From assembly GCF_900116205.1 (NCBI RefSeq), contig NZ_FOZS01000001.1:682001-746000 (forward strand): 64,000 nt of DNA, in the 5' to 3' direction. The translations under genes were made by a program, and so were the position numbers. The first letter of the stretch is position 1; the number at the start of each line of letters is the position of its first letter. Positions 10,289 to 46,097 of the stretch are shown piece by piece. Under the pieces are notes generated by a model that saw only the letters and a program-made list of their open reading frames with translations, had not been told where the DNA came from and ran no database searches. Origin of the DNA: Halostagnicola kamekurae. Its GTDB lineage: Archaea > Halobacteriota > Halobacteria > Halobacteriales > Natrialbaceae.

Positions 10289-10750
10289 TTACGATCCCCA
10301 GAAGTTGTCGCGGCTGCCAAGTCGTTCCCGTTTGTGCTGGCTCTCGGTTTCGTCGTCCTCGTCGTCGTCGCTCAAGTCGTCGCTCTCGTCGTCCGGCTCG
10401 TCGTCTTCGTCGCTTTCCAACGGCAGTCGCTCGAGTTCTTTGGCTCTCGCGTGGTTGCTGTGGACGCGCTCGATCTCGACGCGCGATCGGGCCTTCGGGA
10501 GCACGCCGTCGACCATGACGATGAACCCGTCCTCGGTTCGGCCGACGCCGGCGCCGCTTTCGTGCATGTCGACGATGTCGACGACGACTTCCTCGCCGCG
10601 CTTGATCGGTTGGCTCTTCAGGTCGTCGATGGGCTGGTTGTAGTGTTGGCACCACTCCTTGCCACCACGGTCGCCGTAGTGTTGACACCCCATTCCCGAA
10701 ATCCGCTCGGAAAAGCTCGGACAGTCGTCGGCGAGTGGACAGTCTGCCAT
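10289..10750 (-). CDS. TRAM-domain RNA-binding protein with acidic tail
   Basis: 153 residues. An N-terminal cysteine set (MADCPLADDCPSF, GMGCQHYGD, WCQHYNQP) is followed by a TRAM domain: IKRGEEVVVDIVDMHESGAG, then FIVMVDGVLPKARSRVEI. The C-terminal third is an Asp/Glu/Ser-rich tail. TRAM domains bind tRNA or rRNA and are common as short stand-alone proteins in haloarchaea. The four N-terminal Cys could bind zinc. Start 10750 is the ATG at the cysteine cluster. The gene reads away from etfBA; its promoter lies in the 283-bp gap shared with that operon. Confidence 0.87.
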   Translation of the reverse strand: MADCPLADDCPSFSERISGMGCQHYGDRGGKEWCQHYNQPIDDLKSQPIKRGEEVVVDIVDMHESGAGVGRTEDGFIVMVDGVLPKARSRVEIERVHSNHARAKELERLPLESDEDDEPDDESDDLSDDDEDDETESQHKRERLGSRDNFWGS

Positions 10751-11033
10751 ACGGTTTTCTATCAGCGGCGGCGTTAAACCGCTTGCGTCTTGGAAACGAC
10801 GGGTACGCTCGAGCGAGCGTTGCGACCGACGGCCGCCGATCGCGCAGTTTCGACCCGACTTCTGCGTCCAGTCCGGGCCGGTCTGTCGCCGGCGACGAAC
10901 GGAACTCGACACATAGGCGCGATCCCATCTCGACTCACGAACTCTCGGTCGCGTCGAATCTATCGCGACAACTGCTCGCGTATGAAACGGGGTTTCGAAA
11001 ACGTTTACGGGGATGGCAACGCACAAAACAATG

Positions 11034-11825
11034 ATGAAGATTCTCGTTACGGTCAAAGAAGTCGCGACCGTCGAAGACGAGTTCGAGATCGAGGGAACGG
11101 CGATCGCCGACCAGTACCTCGGTGCCGATCTCAACGAATGGGACGACTACGCCGTCGAGGAGGCCGTCCAACTTCAGGAAGCCGGCCTCGCCGACGAGGT
11201 CGTCACCGTCACCATTGGCCCCGAAGACTGCGAGCAGACCATCCGCCAAGCCCTCGCGAAAGGCGCCGACCGCGCCATCCGCGTCTGGGACGACGCCCTC
11301 GAGGATGTCGACCTACTCGATGTCGGCGCGAAGACCGATATCCTGAGCGCCGTCGTCGAGGCTGAAGAGCCGGATCTCGTCCTCTCGGGTGTGCAGTCCG
11401 GCGACGACAGTTTCGGCGCCACCGGCGTCTCGCTCGCCAGCGCCGTCGGCTTCCAGTGGGGCGCGGTCGTCAACGGCCTCGAGCACGACCTCGAAGACGG
11501 CGTCGCGTCGGTCCGGCGCGAACTCGAGGGCGGCGTCGAAGAACTCACTGACATCGACCTGCCCGCGGTGCTGACGATCCAGACCGGGATCAACGAGCCC
11601 CGCTACGCGAGTCTGCGCGGTATTCGCCAGGCCCAGCGCAAGGACCTCGATGTCCAGACGCTGGCCGATCTCGGCGTCGACGCCAGTGCCGTCGAAGGCG
11701 ATCTCGAGCTCACTGAAATGTACGAACCCGAGACCGAGAGCGACGTGACCGTCTGGGAGGGCGGTGCCGACGACACGGCCGGACAACTCGCTGAGTTGCT
11801 CCGCGAGAAGGGGGTGGCACAATGA
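11034..11825 (+). CDS. etfB: electron transfer flavoprotein beta subunit
   Basis: 263 residues starting MKILVTVKEVATVED, with the ETF-beta/adenine-nucleotide alpha-hydrolase fold: LSGVQSGDDSFGATGVSLA, then the recognition-loop region LPAVLTIQTGINEPRYASLRG. ETF-beta binds AMP and partners EtfA to carry electrons from acyl-CoA dehydrogenases or other flavoproteins to the quinone pool. Two tandem ATGs (11031, 11034) could start it; the second fits the family. The stop overlaps the etfA start (ATGA at 11822-11825), so the two subunits are translationally coupled. No etfD/fixC-like quinone oxidoreductase is adjacent. Confidence 0.95.
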   Translation: MKILVTVKEVATVEDEFEIEGTAIADQYLGADLNEWDDYAVEEAVQLQEAGLADEVVTVTIGPEDCEQTIRQALAKGADRAIRVWDDALEDVDLLDVGAKTDILSAVVEAEEPDLVLSGVQSGDDSFGATGVSLASAVGFQWGAVVNGLEHDLEDGVASVRRELEGGVEELTDIDLPAVLTIQTGINEPRYASLRGIRQAQRKDLDVQTLADLGVDASAVEGDLELTEMYEPETESDVTVWEGGADDTAGQLAELLREKGVAQ

Positions 11826-12775
11826 CGGACGTACTCGCGATCGCCGACCACCGCCGCGGTGAACTCCGAGACGTGAGCTACGAGATCATCACCGCCGGGC
11901 GCGAACTCGCGGACGAGACCGGAGGCGATCTCCATCTGGCGATCATCAGCGGCCCCGTCGAGGAGTTCGCCGAGAAGGCGAACCGCGAGGGCGCTGACGC
12001 GATCCACACCGTTTCCTACGGCGAGGAGTTCAACCACGACGTCTACACGCAGGCGATCACACAGCTCTACGACGAACTCAGTCCGCAATACGTGCTCGCG
12101 CCCAACAGCGTCAACGGCCTCGACTACGCCCCCGCCGTCGCCAACGAGCTAGACCTTCCGATCGTCACGGACACGGTCGGCCTCGAGACCGACGGCGAGA
12201 CCCTTCGGGCGAACCGCGAGATGTACGGCGGCAAGGTCGAGACGACCACCGAACTCGAGGGGGCCGCCGTCGCGACGATCCGTAGCGCCGAGTGGCCCCA
12301 AGCCGAAGGCACCGGCGACGCCGAAATCGAGGCCTTCGACGCCGCTATCGACGAGGACGCCATCGGCTCGAGCGTCACGGGCTTCGAAGAGGTCGGCGGC
12401 GGCGACGTCGACATCAGCGAGGCGGACGTGCTGGTCTCGATCGGTCGCGGCATCGAGGAAGAGGAGAATCTGGACATCATTCGCGACCTCGTCGACGCGC
12501 TCGACGCGACGCTGTCGTCGTCGCGGCCGATCGTCGACAACGGCTGGCTGCCCAAAAACCGGCAGGTCGGTCAGTCGGGCAAGGTCGTCACGCCCGACGT
12601 CTACATCGCCATCGGGATCTCGGGGGCAGTCCAGCACGTCGCCGGGATGAAAGGCTCCGATACCATCGTGGCGATCAACACGGACCCGAACGCGCCGATC
12701 ATGGACATCGCCGACTACGCGATCCACGACGACCTCTTCGACGTCGTGCCGGCGCTGACCGAACAGTTCCAGTAA
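11822..12775 (+). CDS. etfA: electron transfer flavoprotein alpha subunit
   Basis: 317 residues. The C-terminal FAD-binding domain is clear: [54 protein letters not shown], and [17 protein letters not shown]. It forms a heterodimer with the preceding EtfB and holds the redox-active FAD in the cytoplasm. It overlaps etfB by 4 bp and ends an apparent two-gene operon; the prenyl synthase 125 bp downstream probably has its own promoter. Length and motifs are complete. Confidence 0.95.
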
Positions 12776-12899
12776 CACGGCCCAATACCGCTATTCTCGT
12801 CGTCCCGCCGATCTCGAACTCCGCCGAACCGTCTCGAGGGACCGAACGGTTTCGGCCGTAACCGTCACGTACTTTTTTCCCCCGTTCGAAGCGCTGGCA

Positions 12900-13742
12900 A
12901 TGGAACTTCTCGAGCGCCGCCGGGCGCTGGTCGAGGAGCGTCTCGTCGAGGTCGTCGACGGCCTCGATCCGGAGACGCTCAGTTCGGAAGTTCGCCACGT
13001 GACGCTCTCGGGGGGGAAACGAGTGCGGCCGATGGTGACGATACTGGCATGTGAAACGGTCGGCGGGGACCGGACCGACGCCGTCGACTTCGGCGTCGGG
13101 ATCGAACTCGTCCACACCGCGTCGCTCGTCGTCGACGACATCATCGACCGCTCGGAGCTTCGACGGGGGACGACCAGCGCCTGGGCCGAGTTCGGCCACG
13201 GGCCGGCGATCATCGCGAGCGACGGACTACTCGGCGAGGCGTTCGCCCTCTTTTCGGCGGATCCGAAGGCGACGCAGGTCGTCGCCGAGTCGCTGGTCGA
13301 ACTCGGCGTCGGCGAGGCGACCGAACTCTCTTCCCAGCCATCGAACGAAGCCGAGTACATGACCCTCGCGCGCCGGAAGACCGGCGCGCTGTTTCGCGCC
13401 GCAGCGGAACTGGGCGCGATCGCCGCCGACTCCGATCCGTTTACCGTCGAGACGCTCGGCGAGTACGCCGAACGCGTCGGCGTCGCCTTCCAGATTCGAG
13501 ACGACGTGTTGGACGCGACTGCGGATCCCTCCTCGCTCGGAAAACCGACCGGCCACGACGCCGCCCTCGAGCGTCCCTCGGTCGTCCAGGTGACCGACCT
13601 GACGCCCGCGGAGGCGAACGAACGGGCCCGATCGCAGGCTGACCGGGCGATCGACGCGCTCAAGACAGTCGACGCCGTCGATACGGCGGCTCGAGACTAC
13701 CTCCTCGAGCTGGCGGAGTTCGTCGTCGAGCGCGAGCGGTAA
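12900..13742 (+). CDS. isoprenyl diphosphate synthase (polyprenyl synthetase family)
   Basis: 280 residues, short for the family but with both aspartate-rich motifs intact: DDIID at residues 79-83 within VVDDIIDRSELRRG, and QIRDDVLD with Asp near 201-202. GGKRVRP near residue 40 is the diphosphate-binding lysine/arginine motif. It condenses IPP with allylic diphosphates to make geranylgeranyl or longer chains for archaeal lipids or quinones. Chain length cannot be decided by eye. A degenerate paralogue without the Asp motifs lies at 35412-36479. Confidence 0.9.
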   Translation: MELLERRRALVEERLVEVVDGLDPETLSSEVRHVTLSGGKRVRPMVTILACETVGGDRTDAVDFGVGIELVHTASLVVDDIIDRSELRRGTTSAWAEFGHGPAIIASDGLLGEAFALFSADPKATQVVAESLVELGVGEATELSSQPSNEAEYMTLARRKTGALFRAAAELGAIAADSDPFTVETLGEYAERVGVAFQIRDDVLDATADPSSLGKPTGHDAALERPSVVQVTDLTPAEANERARSQADRAIDALKTVDAVDTAARDYLLELAEFVVERER

Positions 13743-35411: not shown

Positions 35412-36479
35412 ATGACTGAACGCACCTCCACGCCCGCCCGAGAAACGATCGCAGACCGACTCGATCGAACGCTCCCCGCGCTCTCCCCGGAGGTTCGATC
35501 GATCGCGTTCGACGCGCTCGAACCCGTCGATCGGTCGTTTCCGGTCGCTCTCTGTCGAGCGAGCGCCGGGGCGGTCTCGAGCGACGGGCCGAGCGCGCGA
35601 ACGCTCGAGTCGATCGCGCTCGTCGTCGAACCGCTTCAGGGCTACGTTCGACTCCGAAACGACCTGCTCGCGGCGGACCGGTACGAGAGCGCGGCCGAGC
35701 GTGACGCGGCTATCCTCGCGGGCGATTACCTCCACGCCTTCGCCCACGCCTCGATCGGCGACGCCTCGCCGGCCGACGGCGGTCGGCTCGAACTGTTCCG
35801 CGTGCTCACGGACGCCTCGAACGCCCTGGCGAGTGCCTACGCGACGTCCGAGGGCGATTCGGGATCGGACACGACGCCGGTGTCGGACCCATCGCGGACC
35901 AGCCGGCCGGACCGGCCGGCCGGCGACGCGCCGACCGCGATACTCGCGGGTGCCGCCGCCGAACTCGGGGCGGCGGCGGCCGGCGCGACCGAAACCGTCC
36001 GCGAATCCGCTCGCGCTTACGGCGCGTCGCTCTCGCGGGCCCTCTCGATCGCCGAACGCGGATCGGTCGACACACGGGACGAATCACCCCGGTGGGTCGC
36101 GACTCGCGTCCTCTCGGCGCGATCGTTCGACGATGACACGGACGAACCGCCGCTGTCGGCGAGCGAGTGCGCGCTCGACGGACCGGTCGGCAACCGCGAC
36201 GGCTCGCTGGAGGCGGGTGATCGATCGGCCGTCCTCGAGGACGAACTCGAGTCCGCCCGAAGCGCCCTCGAGACCATCGAGACGGTCGATCCGATCGATC
36301 GAGGTCCCGCGACGGCCGACGGTGAGGATTCGCCCGCTGTTGACGACCCCGCTCGATCGGCCCAGGGTTCGTCGGATCGCCATTCCGACGACATCCACCA
36401 GTCCGAACTCGCTCCCCGAACACGGCTCGAGCGAGCCGCGCACCTCCCGTTCCAGGGCTTGCTCGCCGCCGATGAGTGA
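35412..36479 (+). CDS. degenerate prenyl-synthase-like protein (DUF7114-like)
   Basis: 355 residues. The N-terminal 150 residues follow the isoprenyl synthase helix pattern (ESIALVVEPLQGYVRLRNDL, then AAILAGDYLHAFAHASIGD), but RNDLL stands where active enzymes have DDxxD, and no second DDxxD motif is found. The C-terminal half has Ala-rich helices separated by acidic, low-complexity loops. It is probably catalytically dead and may be a structural or regulatory relative. It overlaps the next gene by 8 bp (coupled). Confidence 0.7.
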   Translation: MTERTSTPARETIADRLDRTLPALSPEVRSIAFDALEPVDRSFPVALCRASAGAVSSDGPSARTLESIALVVEPLQGYVRLRNDLLAADRYESAAERDAAILAGDYLHAFAHASIGDASPADGGRLELFRVLTDASNALASAYATSEGDSGSDTTPVSDPSRTSRPDRPAGDAPTAILAGAAAELGAAAAGATETVRESARAYGASLSRALSIAERGSVDTRDESPRWVATRVLSARSFDDDTDEPPLSASECALDGPVGNRDGSLEAGDRSAVLEDELESARSALETIETVDPIDRGPATADGEDSPAVDDPARSAQGSSDRHSDDIHQSELAPRTRLERAAHLPFQGLLAADE

Positions 36480-36804
36480 CGCCGCTCGTCCGTACTGGCC
36501 GGCGTACGTCTTGTCGGTGCTCGTCGCGGGCGCAGGACACTGGTATCTCGGGAAGTGGCGCCGCGGCTTCGCCTGGTTCGGTCTGTACGCGCTTGCACTC
36601 GCCTTCCTGAGCGCCCGAACCGTCGTCGGTGCCTTCGACCCGAGCGATCCGTTCGTCGTGACGGCGCTGCAACTCGAGTCGGTCGCCTACGCCGACGTGG
36701 CCGTTCCGCTCGCGGTTTTGCTCGTCTGTCTGCTCGATCTCTATCTCATCGGCGTCGCTACCGACGGGGGCGAACCGATGGACGAAAACCCCTCGAACCG
36801 GTAG
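36472..36804 (+). CDS. small multi-helix membrane protein
   Basis: 110 residues with three hydrophobic stretches: PAYVLSVLVAGAGHWYLGKW, then GFAWFGLYALALAFL, and VAVPLAVLLVCLLDLYLIGV. The GAGHWYLGKWRRGF segment resembles TM2-like proteins. The start ATG lies inside the stop region of the preceding gene (8-bp overlap), so the two are co-translated, suggesting a membrane partner for the prenyl-synthase-like protein. Function unknown. Confidence 0.75.
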   Translation: MSDAARPYWPAYVLSVLVAGAGHWYLGKWRRGFAWFGLYALALAFLSARTVVGAFDPSDPFVVTALQLESVAYADVAVPLAVLLVCLLDLYLIGVATDGGEPMDENPSNR

Positions 36805-36813
36805 GACCGTCAG

Positions 36814-37237
36814 ATGGAACTCGAGTTTCGCGGCGGTGCCGGCGAAGTCGGTCGAAGGTGCTCGTGATCGACGGGACGCTGGTGGTCGGTTTCGGCATGG
36901 ATTCGGGGAACCCGCCGTCGTTTCCCGTCGGCGATGTCGACCCGGAAGCGATCGTCGTGAGCCACGGCCACCTCGATCACGTCGGGTCGCTTGCCTCGTT
37001 GCTGGCGGGCGATACGCGACCAGAGATCAACTGGACGCCGCCGACCCGGGATCTCGGATGGTGCTCGCTCGAGACACGCTGAAACTCCACGGCGTCTCGA
37101 ACGGGCCGACTCGGCGCGGCGGGAGCTATGACTGTCCGTTCACCGAGGCCGAGCTCGCGCAGGTGAGTCAGGTGTCCGAAACCCACGACTACCGCGAGAC
37201 CTTCGAGGTCGCCGGCTACGAGGTCACGTATGCCTAA
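36814..37237 (+). pseudogene. 5' remnant of a beta-CASP metallo-beta-lactamase RNase (aCPSF2-like)
   Basis: From ATG 36814 the translation begins MELEFRGGAGEVGR, as in aCPSF2-type RNases, but the frame breaks near 36855 and continues one frame over (VLVIDGTLVVGF...SHGHLDHVGSL with the zinc motif). It breaks again near 37058 and continues as VLARDTLKLHG to YEVTYA and a stop at 37237. Homology to the intact copy at 41978-43210 ends at about its residue 130, just before the next zinc-ligand region. Two frameshifts plus truncation make it a dead gene fragment. Confidence 0.9.
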
Positions 37238-37343
37238 CAACGTTGGCTGACGCTGTGAGGTGGACGAAGGTGGTCATTCTGAATGATCGTCATGAGATAG
37301 TCCCAGGGTATTCCCTACGGCGAGAGGAATAAACGTGAAAACG

Positions 37344-38704
37344 TCACGGCAGATCAATCGTCCCGGTATCACCGTTAATATGGATGGTAGTGCCGAACGC
37401 CTCTGAGCGCTCAGCAAGCGTTTGGAGAATCTCATGGGCTTTTTCGCCGGTTGCAAGCGCCGGTGTACCGCGCTGCGGAGTAGGCGCGCGTGGTTGGAGG
37501 GTGCATGGATAGAGAGTCACGTTAGCGAGCGTCCCATCTGCCGAAAATTCACACTGTGGGACGACAGATATCCAGTTGTCCGTATCATGTGTGACGGTTG
37601 AATCTGTCTCTGGTGAGGCAACCTCTCCGCGTACGTCAGGCACAGTCGATTCCACAGTTTGGTTGATAGACTCGGGGATCCGACGGATGGCATCTTCGTG
37701 GAAGAAGAAGTTTCCGAGCGAATAGAAAATCGGTCGTCGCTGATGAACTTCGATCCCACGGAGAGTGTGCGGACCGGTTATGACGACTACATCAACGCCT
37801 GCTTCTACACATTCATGGGCGAACTGCTGAAGGAACAGGGGTGTCTCACTCGTATTTCGATTCCCGTTTCTGGCCTGATGAGCGTGCAAACCCATTATCA
37901 CCCAGTCATAGCATCCGCGTCGCTGACCCGGGCGAGGAGCGCTTCACGGTCACGCTCGTGAATAGAATGATAAATTCCAGGCGACTGCTGCTCTGTGGCG
38001 GGGGCACATCGCATCTGCATGAAGTAGTACGCGTCATCGGTCTGCCAATCAGGATTTGTCCGCCGGAGCCACTCCCCTTTAACTTGGTCAATCCCGGTCT
38101 GGGAGGCGATCATCCGAAGCTGATCGAGATGTTCAGGCATCATACGGTATGTCCACTCTACGTGAAGCGGATTGACACCGCATGTGCCATCGAACGTAGG
38201 CGTTGAGACACCCGCTTCTCCCCCAGGTGGGATACTCGTTGTAGCATTGAGGAGGCCGACACGGCCTGCTTCAGTGTCCAAATACGCTGGATCTCGCGCC
38301 TCGGTCAAGTTCCGTCCGATACCTGCGAACGTGAGATCGCGCGTACGCATCGCAGAGAGGGTGGTTCGAAGTCCAGTGGTCCCGAAGTCGAGAGCGTGAT
38401 TAGAGGCGGCTGTGAAGAGATTTAGTCCCATGTCGGTCAGTTCGCCAAGAATACTGGGGGTGGTTCCCATGATTGTGCCTGGGAATGGGGCGAGGTACTG
38501 GTACTGGTCGGTCACCTGCCGCAGAGAGGCGTGTTGATTATCTGTGGTTACCAAGACAGGCTCGACCTGAGTTACCGCCGCATCCGTCTCACGGAGAACG
38601 TCAAGAAGCGCGGCAAACTCCTCCGTTTCGTCTTCCAGTTCTGATATAGACTGTGCGAGGATTGCGTCCCCTGTAGCAGCAACGGTAAACGGATCAGACG
38701 CCAT
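37344..38704 (-). pseudogene. CapA-family metallophosphatase-like gene, frameshifted
   Basis: The N-terminal part (37898-38704, 268 residues) runs VAATGDAILAQSISELED to AASNHALDFGTTGLRTTLSA and stops at ADAMTG. The rest (37344-37901) starts in another frame at IMGLHAHQARNG and holds VDVVVITGPHTLRGIEVHQ and IFYSLGNFFF. Together they make one complete CapA/PGA_cap domain, so a single-base change at about 37898-37905 splits one gene. The GTGA overlap could allow re-initiation, so two co-translated halves remain possible. CapA proteins take part in poly-gamma-glutamate synthesis or act as phosphatases. Confidence 0.8.
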
Positions 38705-38937
38705 AGCTAAAATTCAGATGCCTTCCACTTTGTCCTGATGAACCTGCCGTCCCTTCGTAATAACTCCCTCCCCGCTTATTATGTCAGCTTCGTAGGGGCA
38801 CCGATTCAGTTTAGAAGAGCTCCGCCTCTCAGGCCAATCCGTCAACGTTGGACGACGTTCTCGGTCGGCGTAGAAAAGACTAATCGCCGAATGCTGGATT
38901 CCCCGCGAACCTGTGCCGGACGCATTTGACACTCTCG

Positions 38938-39582
38938 TCACTCCGTTTCGGTATGGCTTTGAATCACGGCTGCCTCTGCTTTCCGCACCAGTTCCCCGGC
39001 GGTACTCGTCGAGCAGTTTAGTACACCTGCGATATCAGCAACCGTTCCCTCCCGAGGTACTTCGTAATAGCCGACCGAGACCGCGGCCTCCAGTGCCGCC
39101 TCTTGCCGGTCAGTGAGGTGTGAAGGCGAGTTCTTCCGCTCGAAGTCGTGGACCTGTTCGATGGTGAGTTCACCGAGTTCGGAGAGCTTTTCGTAGAACG
39201 TACTGAGTGCCGCCGTTTCACCGACCGCTTCGAACTGTACCTCACCCGTCTCGAGAAAGACGACTGGCGGGAGGAAAATCACGTTTGAACCTTCGATTGT
39301 ATCCAGCAGTGCCGAAGCGAACTCGTAGTCGGACTGCCGTAGAAACGCGTACGTCCCATCATTATCCACGACGAAGTTACTAACGAGAAGCGAGTCGATA
39401 TGGGCGATGGCTTTCTCAGTCGCTTCTCGATCCCCGTCACACCAGAACAACGTCGTCGCGTCTTCGGTCGGACTCCACATCAGCAGCTCGGCCCGTGAAA
39501 TCGATGTCCGCTCCATGATCTGCTGGTGAAGTGGGTGAATGAATCGCTTCGGATAGGTGGCCGAGAACTGGATTCGTTTCAT
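38938..39582 (-). CDS. HTH_10 (Bat-type) transcriptional regulator
   Basis: 214 residues. It opens MKRIQFSATYPKRFIHPLHQ, the usual sensor-half start of this family, and ends with the HTH_10 domain: LTDRQEAALEAAVSVGYYEV, then GVLNCSTSTAGELVRKAEAA. It probably controls the neighbouring monooxygenase/hydrolase pair (inference from position on the same strand). Start 39582 was chosen by family; the 26 extra upstream residues are not conserved in character. Confidence 0.82.
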   Translation of the reverse strand: MKRIQFSATYPKRFIHPLHQQIMERTSISRAELLMWSPTEDATTLFWCDGDREATEKAIAHIDSLLVSNFVVDNDGTYAFLRQSDYEFASALLDTIEGSNVIFLPPVVFLETGEVQFEAVGETAALSTFYEKLSELGELTIEQVHDFERKNSPSHLTDRQEAALEAAVSVGYYEVPREGTVADIAGVLNCSTSTAGELVRKAEAAVIQSHTETE

Positions 39583-39690
39583 GCCGCCGTTGAACGGCGT
39601 TCGACTGAGCCACATATCAATCAGTATGGTCTCGACCGAGCAGCTCCAAACCCAGTGCAATGATATGGAGGGATCTGGTCGTCATACTAT

Positions 39691-40827
39691 CTAACGTAAT
39701 TCACGTTTGAGAAACCATTCGAACAGCGGTGTCCGTTTCGTCAGACCGTTCCGTGCCCGACGAAGGACGGGTGATTTGAGGAGTGTGAACGTGGACTCAA
39801 CTCGGGCAGTTCGGTGGACGCGTTTTGCATCGGGGCGGCGGCGCTGTTCGAACCGACTGAAAGCTTTCCGAGACGACGATCGGTCCGTCGTCAGCAGTTC
39901 TTGGGCTAGCACACGGGCGTCCTGTAGCGCGAGCGACGCGCCCATGCCTGAGATCGGGTGAACCGCGTGCGCAGCATCGCCGATTAATACGATACGATCT
40001 GTATGCCAGCTCTCACAGGAAACCTCTCGGACGCGGTCGAAGAACGGCTCGTCGTCCGTTCCGTCGAGGAGCGCCGGGAGTTTCCAACCAATGGCTTCTG
40101 CATGATCGCGGAGCGTCTCGCGGGCCGGCCCGGCTACCGGTGTGTCGTGGCGTGCGGCAAGATTGAATCCGACGCGGTCGCCGACGCGTGCCACGAATCC
40201 TTCACTTCCGGGACCCCAAACGCTGACCATGTCCGGGCCGATCTTGATGTCTTGATGAGCCCAGAGTGACCAGATGTACGTATCGCGTTCGCGTACCGTC
40301 CAGTCGGTAAAGCACTGCTCACGGACGGTGGAATGTACGCCGTCCGCACCGACGACAACATCGAACGTCTCCGTCGAACCGTCGTCGAATGTGACTTCAA
40401 CGCCGCCGCGGGTCTCGTTGATTCGGACTGGTTCTGTGTCCATTCGGAGCCATGCTTCAGGAATATGATTATGGAGGGTCGCGTGCAGGTCGGCACGGTG
40501 AACCGCCAAGAGAAGCGATTGTCCTCGCGGGATCGACATCCGTGTGAGAACTTTCTCATCGCTCGCATGCACGGCAACCGCTCGCGGGTCAGTCGCGACC
40601 TCACGGACGGACGACAGAAGGTCGAGGTCCGCGAGTACAGCTTGGCCATCAGCCCAGAGGCCGATACCGTATCCACTCCTATCCCATTCGGCGCGCTGTT
40701 CGACTATCGTCGGTTCGTAGTCGAAACGGGCGAGGTAGTTTGCCACCGCGAGGCCAGCCAGACCTCCACCGACGATCAGCACGTCGGCGTCCATAGCTGT
40801 CGAACCGCCGTGTTGGGAGTCAGTCAT
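39691..40827 (-). CDS. FAD-dependent monooxygenase (UbiH/PHBH family)
   Basis: 378 residues. The FAD-binding Rossmann motif is DVLIVGGGLAGLAVANYLAR; VVGADGVHSTVR is the DG motif and VLIGDAAHAVHPISGMGASL the GD motif. Enzymes of this group hydroxylate or epoxidise aromatic or polyene substrates using NAD(P)H and oxygen. Start 40827 overlaps the stop of the upstream hydrolase by 8 bp (coupled); a later ATG (40794) precedes the Rossmann strand. The pair looks like a small catabolic or modification unit; the substrate is unknown. Confidence 0.88.
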   Translation of the reverse strand: MTDSQHGGSTAMDADVLIVGGGLAGLAVANYLARFDYEPTIVEQRAEWDRSGYGIGLWADGQAVLADLDLLSSVREVATDPRAVAVHASDEKVLTRMSIPRGQSLLLAVHRADLHATLHNHIPEAWLRMDTEPVRINETRGGVEVTFDDGSTETFDVVVGADGVHSTVREQCFTDWTVRERDTYIWSLWAHQDIKIGPDMVSVWGPGSEGFVARVGDRVGFNLAARHDTPVAGPARETLRDHAEAIGWKLPALLDGTDDEPFFDRVREVSCESWHTDRIVLIGDAAHAVHPISGMGASLALQDARVLAQELLTTDRSSSRKAFSRFEQRRRPDAKRVHRTARVESTFTLLKSPVLRRARNGLTKRTPLFEWFLKRELR

Positions 40828-41653
40828 CGATACCCTCCATCACGTGGGGAGTACTCCGAAGCAGCGTCTGAAGGTGGTCTGCATCGTCGAGAACGTGCAG
40901 TTCGGCGCTCGGTATCTCCCCTTCTAGGCGACGAGCCCCGGCAATCGGTACGTTCGTATCGTTACTCCCGTGCCACAACCGTACTTCTACGTCGATCTCG
41001 TCGAAGTCGACACCCCAGTCAGTTGCTGTATCGCGGAACTCAATCACTGCGCCATTGCGAGAATGGGCGAACGCCTCGACGAAGTCCTCCTTCACGATCT
41101 CTGCCGCAGCGTTGGCTACCGCGTCGTCATTTGCAGTATATTGCCCGACGACGAACGACGGATCCAAGCGTTCCGCCAGCCACATCTGTCCACGGAAGAG
41201 TCCTCGGAGGACGGATGGTGTCGTGGTCGCCAAACTCGCCAGGAGTCGTTGTATCGCAGGGGATTCATCGCTGGCGGTCGGGGGCGTCGCCCCGGCAATA
41301 ATATCGATTTGGTTAATTCTCTCGGCTTGCGTTGCTGCTATTGATAGCGCGTATGGACTGCCACCAGAGAATGCGATGAGACCCGCAGTTTGCACGTCTG
41401 CGTCGTCCAGAACTGGCGTAACGAACTCAGCGGCATCACGCACTGAGCGATTCGGCCACGGTGAGGAGCGGCCGTATCCTGGTCTATCGGGCGCGAGTAC
41501 TCGAACGCCGTTCTCCTGCGCTTCTGCCTCAAAAAGCGCCCCTAGCTGACGAGACCCGGGCGTTCCGTGGAGAAATACCACTGGAACTCCATCTGGACAT
41601 CCGTATTCAGTATACGTGATCTGGCGGTCACTATCTACTGGAACGACGTTCAT
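40820..41653 (-). CDS. alpha/beta hydrolase
   Basis: 277 residues with VVFLHGTPGSRQL (oxyanion loop), the nucleophile elbow GLIAFSGGSPYALSI (Ser in AFSGG), RLWHGSNDTNVPIAGAR (acid region) and LHVLDDADHLQTLL (His region). It differs from the hydrolase at 3246 in using Ser. It is translated first in a coupled pair with the FAD monooxygenase, which suggests ring-cleavage or ester-hydrolysis steps in one pathway (inference). Start 41653 (MNVVPVDSDRQITY) fits the family. Confidence 0.86.
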   Translation of the reverse strand: MNVVPVDSDRQITYTEYGCPDGVPVVFLHGTPGSRQLGALFEAEAQENGVRVLAPDRPGYGRSSPWPNRSVRDAAEFVTPVLDDADVQTAGLIAFSGGSPYALSIAATQAERINQIDIIAGATPPTASDESPAIQRLLASLATTTPSVLRGLFRGQMWLAERLDPSFVVGQYTANDDAVANAAAEIVKEDFVEAFAHSRNGAVIEFRDTATDWGVDFDEIDVEVRLWHGSNDTNVPIAGARRLEGEIPSAELHVLDDADHLQTLLRSTPHVMEGIDD

Positions 41654-41977
41654 TTGTTGTTGGTCCAAGCTTGGTCTACGTTGAGAGCGGGTGGATGATG
41701 TCATTATCTGTAATTATTCGACCAAGTGTCGAGGGACTGGTGCCGGATCAATACGGTGGTATTTACGCACGCCGCAATCAATCAGCGGAAGCCTCGGCTA
41801 TCTTATCGGCCGTTTCTCAGAATTTTCACCATGTTGCGGGCGGTAGTACGCCGTGAGAACAATCGCGGCCAGACGTCTGACACCGTGGTGGTTACGGCTA
41901 TGTCTGCTGACCACTACGTGAATCTATTTGGCACAACCGCCGTAATCTATAATGGTGTTTTCGACAAGTCCAGGCAG
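41654..41977. other. 324-bp intergenic region within the island
   Basis: Low-GC spacer between the intact RNase stop and the hydrolase start (both minus strand). It contains AT-rich tracts (for example ATTATCTGTAATTATTCG near 41702-41719) that could serve as the promoter of the hydrolase/monooxygenase pair. Short open frames on the plus strand have no recognisable motif. No RNA gene seen. Confidence 0.55.
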
Positions 41978-43210
41978 CTAAGCTGTGACCTCGTCACCTA
42001 GTTCTGGTGCCGATGCCGCATATCCAATCTCAGAGAGTTCCTCAGCAAACGCATCACAGCGGTCGCCATGATTTACAAGAACCCGACTATCTTTATACTC
42101 ACTGAGTAAGTTCAACAGTCCGTCACGGTCTGCATGTGCAGAGAAGTCGTACCATTCAGCCTGCGCGCTGACGGGCATGACGCGACCGTCGATCTCAGCT
42201 CGGCCAGATTCTAAAAGTTCGCGCCCCGGTGTCCCCTCGACCTGATAGCCCGTGAGCGCGATCTTGTTCGTTGGACTTGACCGAATCTCTGGAATGTACG
42301 TCATGGCCGGTCCTCCAGATAGCATACCGCTGGTCGTAACGATAACCGTATTCTGAGCAGCAATTCGTTTCCGCTGACCATCTCGGCCGGTGACGAAGCG
42401 AGCGTTCGACTTCGCTCGGCGGAGTGCCTCATCGTCTCGGACGAACTCTGGGTGGCGTCGGAGCATCTGAGTCACTTGTTTTCCCATACCGTCGACGTAA
42501 CAGTCGATGTCACGGGCTTCACAGACAAGTAGCATCTCCTGTGTCCGTCCGATGGCAAATGCCGGCACGACGGCGGTACCGCCCTCCCAGAGCGTCGTTT
42601 CGATACTCTCGGCGAACTGATCCTCGATGCGCTGTCGACGCTCATGCTCGACGTCAGAGTATGTGCTTTCACAGATGACGACGTCAGCGTCGGGGCGGGC
42701 AGTCGATGCCGAGACCAATCGCTGATCTTCTGTATGGAAGTCCGCCGTGTAGAAGAGCCTCGTTTCGCCATCGTCTACGAGGACGTGAGCACTCCCCGGG
42801 ATATGACCTGCGTTGAAGAACGTGATCTCGTGGCCAGCCGCCTCAAAGCTCTCTCGGTAGCTGTGCGTCTTGGAGACCTGAGTAACTCGCCGCACCTCTT
42901 CTTCCGTAAATGGACAGTCGTAGGTACCGCCGTGGAGTTTGAGCGTGTCGCGGGCAAGCGTCAGTGCTAATTCTCGTGTCGGTGGTGTCCAGTGGATCGG
43001 TGGGCGACGGTCGCCGGAGAGGAGCGATGGAATTGCGCCAACGTGATCGAGGTGACCATGACTGACTACAACAGCATCGGGGTCGGGCGTATCCACCGGA
43101 AACTGTGGCGGGTTCCCGGTCAACATCCCGTAGTCAAGAAGAAGGCGGTCGTTCACGAGGATGGCGCTCCGACCGACCTCGTGAACTCCACCGAGAAACC
43201 GGATTTTCAT
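41978..43210 (-). CDS. beta-CASP metallo-beta-lactamase RNase (aCPSF2/RNase J-like)
   Basis: 410 residues, complete. The zinc motifs are VVVSHGHLDHVGAIP, NAGHIPGSAHVL and FYTADFHTEDQRLV; the beta-CASP motifs include DVVICESTYSDVEHERR, ISAHADRDGLL-like SAHADRDGLLNLL and LVNHGDRC. There are no N-terminal KH domains, as in archaeal aCPSF2-type nucleases, which process RNA as endo- or 5'-3' exonucleases. It is the right-hand gene of the island, inverted relative to the two remnants of the related resident gene that flank it. Confidence 0.92.
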   Translation of the reverse strand: MKIRFLGGVHEVGRSAILVNDRLLLDYGMLTGNPPQFPVDTPDPDAVVVSHGHLDHVGAIPSLLSGDRRPPIHWTPPTRELALTLARDTLKLHGGTYDCPFTEEEVRRVTQVSKTHSYRESFEAAGHEITFFNAGHIPGSAHVLVDDGETRLFYTADFHTEDQRLVSASTARPDADVVICESTYSDVEHERRQRIEDQFAESIETTLWEGGTAVVPAFAIGRTQEMLLVCEARDIDCYVDGMGKQVTQMLRRHPEFVRDDEALRRAKSNARFVTGRDGQRKRIAAQNTVIVTTSGMLSGGPAMTYIPEIRSSPTNKIALTGYQVEGTPGRELLESGRAEIDGRVMPVSAQAEWYDFSAHADRDGLLNLLSEYKDSRVLVNHGDRCDAFAEELSEIGYAASAPELGDEVTA

Positions 43211-43313
43211 TACCCTCTGTTAGCAGCCCGCGATGTTTGTCCTCGTCGATTCCTTCTTGATATCCGGTCGGTCGATGGGTAATCACACTCTCTGACACAT
43301 ACCATATCCTTTC

Positions 43314-43463
43314 GGACTGCTTTCGTTTCTCGAGTCCTACCGCGAGACGGAGGTTCTCGCGGTTCACGGCGACCGGTGTGGGGCGTTCGCGGCCGAGTTA
43401 GCCGACGACGGGTTCGACGCGAGTGCGCCGGCGATTGGCGAGACGTGGACGAGTACAGCCTGA
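43314..43463 (+). pseudogene. 3' remnant of the resident beta-CASP RNase
   Basis: The frame GLLSFLESYRETEVLAVHGD, then RCGAFAAELADDGFDASAPA and a TGA at 43461-43463 matches the last 47 residues of the intact island copy (GLLNLLSEYKDSRVLVNHGD and onward). There is no start codon and the homology begins abruptly at about 43314. Read together with 36814-37237, this is the tail of one interrupted gene on the plus strand. Confidence 0.9.
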
Positions 43464-43605: not shown

Positions 43606-45480
43606 ATGAACGATTCCGACTCCTCCGCGGAGGCGGGGGCAACACGGGAGGCGGAGACGACCCAGGAGCGGGATACGGGACCGCCCGACGAGGTGGATGC
43701 GGTCCGTGATGCGGTCGAGCGGTCCAGAAGCGGGGCGCCGGCGGTCGGTGCAGTCGTTCGGGATCGGTTTTCCTCCGACGAAGTGTTCCAGCGGATCGTG
43801 GCCGCCGCCGACGAGGAGATCACCTCCGGAAGTCGCGAACTGCTGTTTAGCAGCATCGCCGCCGGGCTGGCGATCTCGATCACGGTGTTGCTCTACTCGT
43901 CGCTGCGCGGTGCGACCGACGGACACCCGATACTGAGCGCGCTGCTGTACCCGCTCGGGTTCATCTACATCATCATCGGCGGCTACCAGCTTTACACCGA
44001 GAACACCCTCCCGCCCGTCGCGCTCACCATCGAGCGACTGGCCAGCGTCCCGGCGTTGCTTCGCCACTGGCTGATCGTCATCATCGGTAACTTCATCGGG
44101 GGAACGATCGGCGCGGCGGTCCTCGCGTGGGGCGGCGTCTTCTCGGACGACGCGGCTGACGCGGCGGTCTACCTCGGCACCCACGGCGCGGAGACGCCGT
44201 GGTTCGACCTCTTCTTCAAGGCCGCCTTCGCCGGGCTCATCGTCGCCGGCGTCGTCTGGGTCGCATTCGCCTCACGCGATACGATTTCCCGGCTCGTCGT
44301 CGTCTACCTCGCGTTTCTTGCGATCCCGCTGGGGAACCTCTTTCACGTGGTCACCTCCTTCACCGAAATGGCCTACGTCGTCTTCGTCGGCGAACTCGAG
44401 TTGCTCCCGGGATTGACGGGATTCGTCCTCCCGGTGTTGCTCGGCAACACCATCGGCGGCGTCGTGCTCGTCACCATCGTCAATTACTATCAGACCAGCG
44501 AGGAGCGCCTCGAGTCCGCCCGCTTCGGCGGGGCGGATTCGCGCCTCACCCCGACCGAGTGGCTGTTGGGCGGGATCGCCGGTCGCTCGTTCGTGCCCCT
44601 GATCGACACCGTCGAGGAGACCGCGGCGGACCCCGATACGTTCCGCATTCTCGTTCCGATCGCCAACCCGCGGACCGAGTCGGCGCTCGTCAACTTCGCG
44701 AGCACGCTCGCCAGCCAGAAGGAGTCGGCGGTCGTCCACGTCGTCCACATCGTCCAGCTTCCCGACCAGACGATCGCCGGCTACAGCATGGACCAGCGCC
44801 AGCAGATCATCGACGAGTCCGACAGCCAACTCGAGGGGATCCGCGAGACGGTCGAGAGCTACAATGTCGGCGTCGAGACGTCGACGGTTGTTACCTACCG
44901 TTCGTTCGAGGAGATCTTCAGGACCGCAGAGCGAAAGCACACCGACCTCGTCGTGATGAACTGGGAGGTCGACGACCTGTGGGACGCCGCCCGCGCCGAA
45001 CGGCCGCTCGGCGAACTGACCCAGCAGCTTCCCTGTGACTTCCTGGTCCTCAGAGAGCGGGACTTGGACGCCTCGAGAATCGTGCTTCCGACCGCCGGCG
45101 GTCCGGACTCCGATCTGAGCGCCGAGGTCGTCAAACTACTCCGATCGGGGACCGGTTCGGAGATAACGCTGTTGCACATCGTCGACGGGCCGGACGAGCG
45201 CGAGGCAGGCGAGAAGTTCTTACGGGAGTGGGCCGCAGAACACGGATTAGACGATGCCACACTCGAGGTCGACGACTCCGGCGACGTCGAGGACGCGATC
45301 TGTCGCGCCGTCGACGACCAGACGATGCTCGTTATCGGTGCGACCGAACGAGGGCTCCTTTCGCGACTCGTCTCGGGGTCGTTACATCTCGAGGTCATCG
45401 AGAAAATCGATAAATCGGTCGTCCTCGCCGAACGGCCGACCAAGCGGAGTCTCTACGAGCGACTGTTCGGGCGTCGCTAA
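43606..45480 (+). CDS. formate/nitrite-transporter-like channel fused to two USP domains
   Basis: 624 residues. Residues about 60-300 are a FNT (FocA/NirC) channel: LLFSSIAAGLAISITVLLYS, ALLYPLGFIYIIIGGYQLYT, ENTLPPVALTIERLASVPAL, NFIGGTIGAAVLAWGG and LLGNTIGGVVLVTIVNYYQT. Residues from about 345 carry one universal stress domain (FRILVPIANPRTESALVNFA), and from about 489 a second (ASRIVLPTAGGPDSDLSAEV, ending VIGATERGLLSRLVSGSLHL). FNT proteins conduct small monovalent anions; USP domains bind nucleotides and could gate the pore (inference). Confidence 0.88.
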   Translation: MNDSDSSAEAGATREAETTQERDTGPPDEVDAVRDAVERSRSGAPAVGAVVRDRFSSDEVFQRIVAAADEEITSGSRELLFSSIAAGLAISITVLLYSSLRGATDGHPILSALLYPLGFIYIIIGGYQLYTENTLPPVALTIERLASVPALLRHWLIVIIGNFIGGTIGAAVLAWGGVFSDDAADAAVYLGTHGAETPWFDLFFKAAFAGLIVAGVVWVAFASRDTISRLVVVYLAFLAIPLGNLFHVVTSFTEMAYVVFVGELELLPGLTGFVLPVLLGNTIGGVVLVTIVNYYQTSEERLESARFGGADSRLTPTEWLLGGIAGRSFVPLIDTVEETAADPDTFRILVPIANPRTESALVNFASTLASQKESAVVHVVHIVQLPDQTIAGYSMDQRQQIIDESDSQLEGIRETVESYNVGVETSTVVTYRSFEEIFRTAERKHTDLVVMNWEVDDLWDAARAERPLGELTQQLPCDFLVLRERDLDASRIVLPTAGGPDSDLSAEVVKLLRSGTGSEITLLHIVDGPDEREAGEKFLREWAAEHGLDDATLEVDDSGDVEDAICRAVDDQTMLVIGATERGLLSRLVSGSLHLEVIEKIDKSVVLAERPTKRSLYERLFGRR

Positions 45481-45650: not shown

Positions 45651-46097
45651 ATGGACGATTCAGAGACACCACCGACCGGCGGAGCCGACGACCTCGAGCT
45701 GAGCGACGCGGAACTCGAGGCACTTCACAATCTCCAGCTGGGAATCGAGCACGTCCACCGGGCCTACGGCTCGCTGCTTGCGTTTCACCACCAGCTCGGC
45801 CACGCGATGGATCGAATGGCGGACGCGGAGTCCCGACTTCGAGACGCGGGTCACGACGCGTGGGCCGACGAACTCCGGGACCAGCACCTCCCGGCGGGCG
45901 CGGTCAGCGACCAGTGGACGTTCGAACTCGTCGAGGAGTTCTCCGAGGTCTTCCTCGAGGAACTCGATCGGTTCGAGAGCGAGGTGCGAGACGAGTTAGC
46001 CGACGGCCTCGACCACGTGAGCGAACGCCGACAGAAGCGCCGCGTTCGCGACCGGGCGGCGAACGGGCGCTCGAGCGGCGACGGTTCGGACGAGTGA
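45651..46097 (+). CDS. helical acidic protein of unknown function
   Basis: 148 residues, mostly amphipathic helix: LSDAELEALHNLQLGIEHVH, then AYGSLLAFHHQLGHAMDRMA and LVEEFSEVFLEELDRFESEV. No Cys and no signal peptide. The His-containing helices (HHQLGH) recall haloarchaeal ferritin-like or four-helix proteins, but the ligand pattern is not convincing. It lies 170 bp after the FNT-USP gene and 49 bp before the flavoprotein; operon membership is uncertain. Confidence 0.7.
   Translation: MDDSETPPTGGADDLELSDAELEALHNLQLGIEHVHRAYGSLLAFHHQLGHAMDRMADAESRLRDAGHDAWADELRDQHLPAGAVSDQWTFELVEEFSEVFLEELDRFESEVRDELADGLDHVSERRQKRRVRDRAANGRSSGDGSDE

Follow-up and report, generated by a model that had tools for sequence, protein, structure and literature searches.

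A foreign block with an inverted homologue inside a haloarchaeal RNase gene that is a recurrent insertion target

Several described systems bring foreign DNA into a protein-coding gene or put a foreign gene in its place. SXT, integrated in prfC, supplies a new 5' end of its target, and e14, integrated in icd, supplies the 3' end. In xenologous in situ displacement, a foreign homologue is found where a native gene has decayed. Among archaea, a survey of Thaumarchaeota described tyrosine-recombinase elements that integrate in the 3'-distal parts of protein-coding genes (PMC6563490).

We analyzed a 64,000-nucleotide stretch of the Halostagnicola kamekurae genome (G000:C1:682001-746000, hereafter the window), in which a native gene for a predicted beta-CASP RNase is divided by a foreign block that carries a complete RNase of the same family. 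As in xenologous in situ displacement, a foreign homologue stands in the place of a native gene that has decayed; unlike in that process, the orientation in the window is opposite, there are extra cargo genes, and the one slot has been hit in several families. The window also differs from SXT and e14 in that its copy is complete and inverted, and from the thaumarchaeal elements in that its block is without a recombinase. Our search of the open literature for this RNase gene as such a target, or for a full RNase copy carried by an element, returned nothing, and absence there is not proof of novelty.

The reading that we favor, at a probability of about 0.55, is a recent in-place xenologous replacement by what would be the eroded remains of an element that targets this gene and carries its own copy of it. 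A foreign patchwork with an RNase of a clade that we label A2 would have entered the native gene, with removal of the middle of that gene; the A2 copy on the opposite strand would then have taken over while the native fragments decayed. Because the block brings its own intact RNase, we propose that the cell kept the activity during this decay. Across haloarchaea, a near-universal, conserved archaeal RNase gene is invaded again and again by DNA that brings the very gene it breaks, and this accounts for the patchy, hybrid and inverted history of the RNase there.

The broken native gene and its uninterrupted relatives

Native loci of the family carry TM2 (a label only), the RNase gene and p148 in that order on a single strand, and the RNase gene is present in 110 of the 111 good genomes of the family. 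From its domains, we read the native gene as encoding an RNase of the aCPSF2-like type, aCPSF2 being what we take to be the name of the subfamily. In the sister species (G002) the gene is uninterrupted and encodes 420 aa; G001 and G004 likewise have an uninterrupted RNase gene, and the block is absent from all three. A single gene in these relatives goes against the possibility, raised in the first-pass annotation, that the two pieces are separate genes elsewhere. At the right flank of the slot in the genus, the 43607-45480 product joins a formate/nitrite transporter to two universal-stress-protein domains.

Features of the window around the divided RNase gene (block strand not assigned)
Feature	Position	Strand	Remarks
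TM2, small membrane protein gene, left flank of native slot	36473..36804	+	Adjoins the RNase gene in G001, G002, G004 and many Natrialbaceae
5' fragment of native RNase gene, residues 1 to ~142	36814..37229	+	416 bp, two frameshifts; ~94% identity to intact G002 gene
Foreign block, 6.1 kb, in place of 703 bp of native gene	37230..43324	.	Right edge between 43312 and 43324
capA/PGA_cap-like gene, two overlapping frames (37898-38704, 37344-37901)	37344..38704	-	Closest in G061, 74% DNA identity
HTH_10 (HVO_0513-like) regulator	38938..39660	-	88% DNA identity to G049:C2
FAD-dependent monooxygenase	39691..40827	-	85% DNA identity to G049:C2
Alpha/beta hydrolase	40820..41704	-	86% DNA identity to G049:C2
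Intact RNase, A2 clade, 410 aa	41978..43210	-	Inverted relative to native slot; Lactamase_B, Beta-Casp and RMMBL domains
3' fragment of native RNase gene, ~residues 375-420 (final ~46 codons)	43325..43463	+	139 bp; 94.6% identity to G002
Formate/nitrite transporter-USP gene, right flank of slot in genus	43607..45480	+	Collinear in G002 and G001; named from domains
p148, conserved marker 3' of native RNase gene	45651..46097	+	From locus comparison

That the window holds two same-strand pieces of one native gene had been seen at first pass, and the pieces stand; their inner ends moved, to 37229 rather than 37237 and to 43325 rather than 43314, and the final bases ahead of the stop of the 5' fragment (after 37229) are island sequence. 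This fragment also extends to residue ~142, not ~130, and carries frameshifts that are new here. Relative to G002, the fragment has lost single bases near 36858 and 37057 and 3 bp near 37096, so that it is a dead pseudogene beyond mere truncation. The native fragments are 94.0-94.6% identical to the G002 gene and the flanking genes 91-97%; since the fragments resemble G002 as closely as the neighboring genes do, the disruption is younger than the split from this sister species. The native gene has lost 703 bp, or ~234 codons (L091 9738..9036 in G002), close to the ~230 estimated earlier, and the window has positions 37230 to ~43312-43324 in their stead.

One detail of the block could point to an artefact, in which a contig mis-join placed foreign DNA in the gene: its capA/PGA_cap-like gene is frameshifted, and either a recent frameshift or a mistake in the assembly probably accounts for this split. 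A mis-join of the whole block is scarcely credible, given that the contig is 1.5 Mb long, that the genome has 99.9% completeness and 0.6% contamination, that the assembly has no other intact native copy, and that the same type of locus occurs in independent genomes.

The intact RNase and the cargo of the block

The intact RNase of the block has the metallo-beta-lactamase (MBL), beta-CASP and RMMBL domains and the length (~410 aa) of an aCPSF2-like RNase and lacks the long N-terminal part of aCPSF1; it scores 249 against the aCPSF1 model TIGR03675, for which the cut-off is 580. It is the sole full-length member of the subfamily in the genome, the next match being aCPSF1 itself (37%, a longer protein). 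A tree built from the first ~300 residues joins the window fragment to G002, G001 and G004 (support 97) and places the intact copy, with moderate support, among sequences of Haloarcula amylovorans, Halobellus rarus, Salinigranum, Halegenticoccus and Haloquadratum; a C-terminal tree places much the same set around the intact copy (support 97). Both trees were quick ones, with SH-aLRT support and no bootstrap. They indicate that the A2 copy is not the vertical orthologue of the fragments, and place it in a divergent, horizontally spread lineage. The first-pass annotation had described a complete, diverged RNase in the opposite orientation and had named vertical descent of that copy as what would speak against a replacement; the description holds, and the copy lies in a separate clade. 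Together, an orthologue that the sister species retains in intact form but that has decayed in the window, a foreign homologue and an incongruent tree are the marks of xenologous replacement in situ. No close relative of this RNase was found on viral contigs, in phages or on plasmids.

The A2 copy sits within the disrupted gene, 115 bp from the 3' fragment. This position bears on a scheme of two unrelated steps, in which the A2 RNase arrived first, the native gene became redundant, and a later, unrelated insertion broke it. Frameshifts in the native 5' fragment are what a redundant gene would acquire, but the scheme requires an independent landing in the same one of ~4,000 genes, and we regard it as quite improbable. 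The opposite orientation rules out simple homologous recombination within the gene, and thus upholds the earlier objection to a plain homologous crossover.

The block was first noted as a 6.1-kb region of lower GC, and this is what we find (0.52-0.63 against 0.63-0.74 in the surroundings). It is a patchwork whose pieces differ in their nearest relatives. The cargo operon resembles ordinary gene content common to an unrelated locus of G049, and we rejected capA and the HTH/FAD/hydrolase genes as hallmarks of an element, as they are ordinary genes with different neighbors in other genomes. In G049 (L142, G049:C2:790001-810000, 10614-13219), the HTH/FAD/hydrolase operon is split by three ORFs that by eye look like RAMP-type CRISPR genes. 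At the block edges there are no direct, inverted or terminal repeats and no transposon ends, and no PF00589 match lies near the block, in line with the lack of integrase and repeats remarked on at first pass. A single 12-bp repeat at the edges was discarded as an element end, being native RNase sequence. Edge and spacer DNA of the block, sought in 125 genomes of the family, matched only the G049 operon, in the region upstream of the hydrolase, apart from one weak 34-bp match.

These features are equally those of illegitimate recombination, in which linear chromosomal DNA with an RNase homologue was end-joined into the gene with a 703-bp deletion and no element took part. The edges have no att site, repeat or recombinase, the insertion was accompanied by a deletion in the target gene, and the pieces of the block have different nearest relatives. 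Selection for RNase activity, as part of the same account, would have retained only those insertions that brought a copy; since nearly all genomes of the family keep the gene, an incoming copy would be selected for. We consider this a strong rival, to which we assign somewhat less than an even chance.

An integrase-bearing element in the same gene

A search with the native RNase type led to G060. Its native gene survives as two pieces, encoding residues 1-312 and 300-418, that lie 42 kb apart and enclose an intact foreign RNase. The left junction reads AGTGG-GATGCTC-GGAAACGAAGAT and the right junction ATCTTCGTTTCC-GATGCTC-CACGG. The insertion site is exactly SGML/HGG, at ~codon 303, with GATGCTC as the att core and GGGATGCTCCACGG as attB; the RNase-gene sequence at the predicted integration site is GGGATGCTC. 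When the ends are joined, the reconstructed attP, ATCTTCGTTTCC-GATGCTC-GGAAACGAAGAT, has two perfect 12-bp arms around a 7-bp core, a layout that a tyrosine-recombinase crossover site would be expected to have. A protein of the Phage_integrase family is encoded near the left end of the G060 element. tRNA genes were dismissed as att sites, as none were found.

The left junction (TTSGML/GNED, with the broken protein ending TTSGML-GNEDPLAVA) recurs at the same codon in seven genomes of four families: G060, G024, G052 and G041 in one family, and G247, G405 and G211 in three others. The right end of the element is conserved in G060, G247 and G405. G247 has the plan of G060, with the 5' fragment at 80.0 kb, the intact RNase at 119.6 kb and the 3' fragment at 123.1 kb. 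Compared stretches of the two ~42-kb elements are 93-96% identical over long runs, with 90% in the RNase region. The host RNase fragments are only 75% and 81% identical, and it follows that the element moved recently between families. Integrases of the same subgroup (at least 78% identity) occur in three of the 391 sampled genomes, each of which has the junction; the next relatives are ~50% identical or less, and none close was found on viral contigs and plasmids. At the level of sequence, these comparisons show the same predicted RNase gene to be a recurrent insertion target across haloarchaea, and they make a defined att site and an integrase available as a candidate pair.

Like the thaumarchaeal elements (PMC6563490), the G060/G247 type is site-specific within a coding gene, has a short att and is verified by empty sites. 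Unlike them, it has its att ~70% into the gene, so that the gene is cut short at ~codon 303, and it carries a further, whole copy of its target. This copy, complete and independent, lies 2-4 kb inside the element near the right end in both G060 and G247, and both host fragments are kept, which sets these elements apart from SXT and e14. The cargo of the G060 element (L151, L152) includes large helicases that resemble Druantia/Dpd/DISARM proteins, along with a BrxD-like ATPase and a HATPase protein. The 42-kb element is thus a possible mobile defence island, and its defence-like genes suggest a route by which such islands could travel between families. More distant integrases (~34-55% identity, L239-L265) are present in 55 further haloarchaeal genomes. 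The left end of the element is also found on contigs without an RNase fragment (L192, G066:C5:123218; L197, G026:C2:307127; L229, G051:C7:63619), which are perhaps free or differently integrated elements.

The suggestion at first pass that an element lands in this RNase gene and supplies a replacement is thus borne out elsewhere, with att and integrase, and only in part in the window. There, the target is split and an intact RNase lies between its halves, as in G060 and G247. The carried RNase differs in clade and in orientation, being inverted in the window, whereas the element-borne RNases run the same way as the target gene. Neither an integrase nor an att core was found in the block, and it shares no gene with the 42-kb element; the element end sequences are not at the block, and the subgroup integrase is absent from the window genome at E 1e-40. 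Codon ~303 falls within the lost 703 bp, so an att site in the window could have been eroded away. An equal gap placed at random would span this codon ~60% of the time, and its loss is therefore weak support for an element origin.

In G211, the two RNase fragments lie 5.3 kb apart and no intact copy was found, indicating that a cell can do without the gene. This weakens the selective filter on which illegitimate recombination would depend. In G087, too, only broken fragments and no intact RNase copy were found; its 3' fragment at codon 302 was rejected as an att junction because it reflects an internal deletion.

Relics, hybrids and inverted copies

In G069, G065, G055, G024, G052, Halorientalis regularis and Halolamina salifodinae, an intact copy has remnants of a broken one 1.5-10 kb away. 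In G069, G065, G052 and G053, the intact RNase is of hybrid make-up: over residues 1-302 it matches the element copy at 76-79% identity and the host type at 66-70%, and over the remainder the figures are 72-74% and 86-92%, respectively. N-terminal and C-terminal trees of the hybrids disagree accordingly. This two-part identity indicates that foreign 5' parts were fused to native 3' parts. The hybrids resemble SXT; as with SXT and e14, integration is tolerable when a functional, partly foreign target gene results.

An all-against-all comparison of the flanks of RNase loci, with one genome per species, was used to call inversions. An A2-type RNase is inverted in the slot in the window, G003, L011, L012, L013 and L015; with G055, where the inverted A2-like copy is decayed, this makes six inverted A2 cases beyond the window. 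A2 RNases in the native orientation occur at L010, L014, L070 and L023, and inverted loci of other types at L039, L060, L089 and in three Halorientalis. Inverted replacement is thus recurrent and enriched in the A2 clade, without being exclusive to it, and some inverted loci, such as L012 and L015, may share one ancestral event. Halobellus rarus (L010) was itself considered as an inverted case and rejected, since the flank comparison showed its relative L060 to be inverted instead. Among the inverted A2 cases, both native halves are kept only in the window; the decayed inverted A2-like copy of G055 lies directly against a native 3' fragment, an arrangement also seen in the window.

Inverted A2 copies in the slot across several families, together with a proven att target in the same gene, would have to be repeated coincidence if illegitimate recombination alone were at work. 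Other relics of the gene have eroded in a similar manner, which favors an element origin of the block. Between the two origins, we judge the odds to be similar, with a slight lean, on account of this recurrence, towards an eroded element.

A bolder view is that the A2 RNase is itself the core of a directional unit that enters resident copies of its family in inverted orientation, with no classical integrase nearby. By eye, no recombinase gene lies near the A2 loci, which also counts against an element origin of the block, and a common element defined by the cargo of the A2 group was rejected, there being neither recombinase nor cargo in common. We think this unlikely. If it were true, the RNase would be a selfish 'replace yourself' gene that repeatedly takes the slot across haloarchaeal families, and a second, integrase-driven family of elements would exploit the same target.

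Directly 3' of the foreign RNase, G055 (L157 3905-5239) and Haloarcula amylovorans (L011 11342-12622) both encode a 444-aa protein of unknown family, 83% identical between the two; in several Natrialbaceae, this protein is encoded some kilobases downstream.
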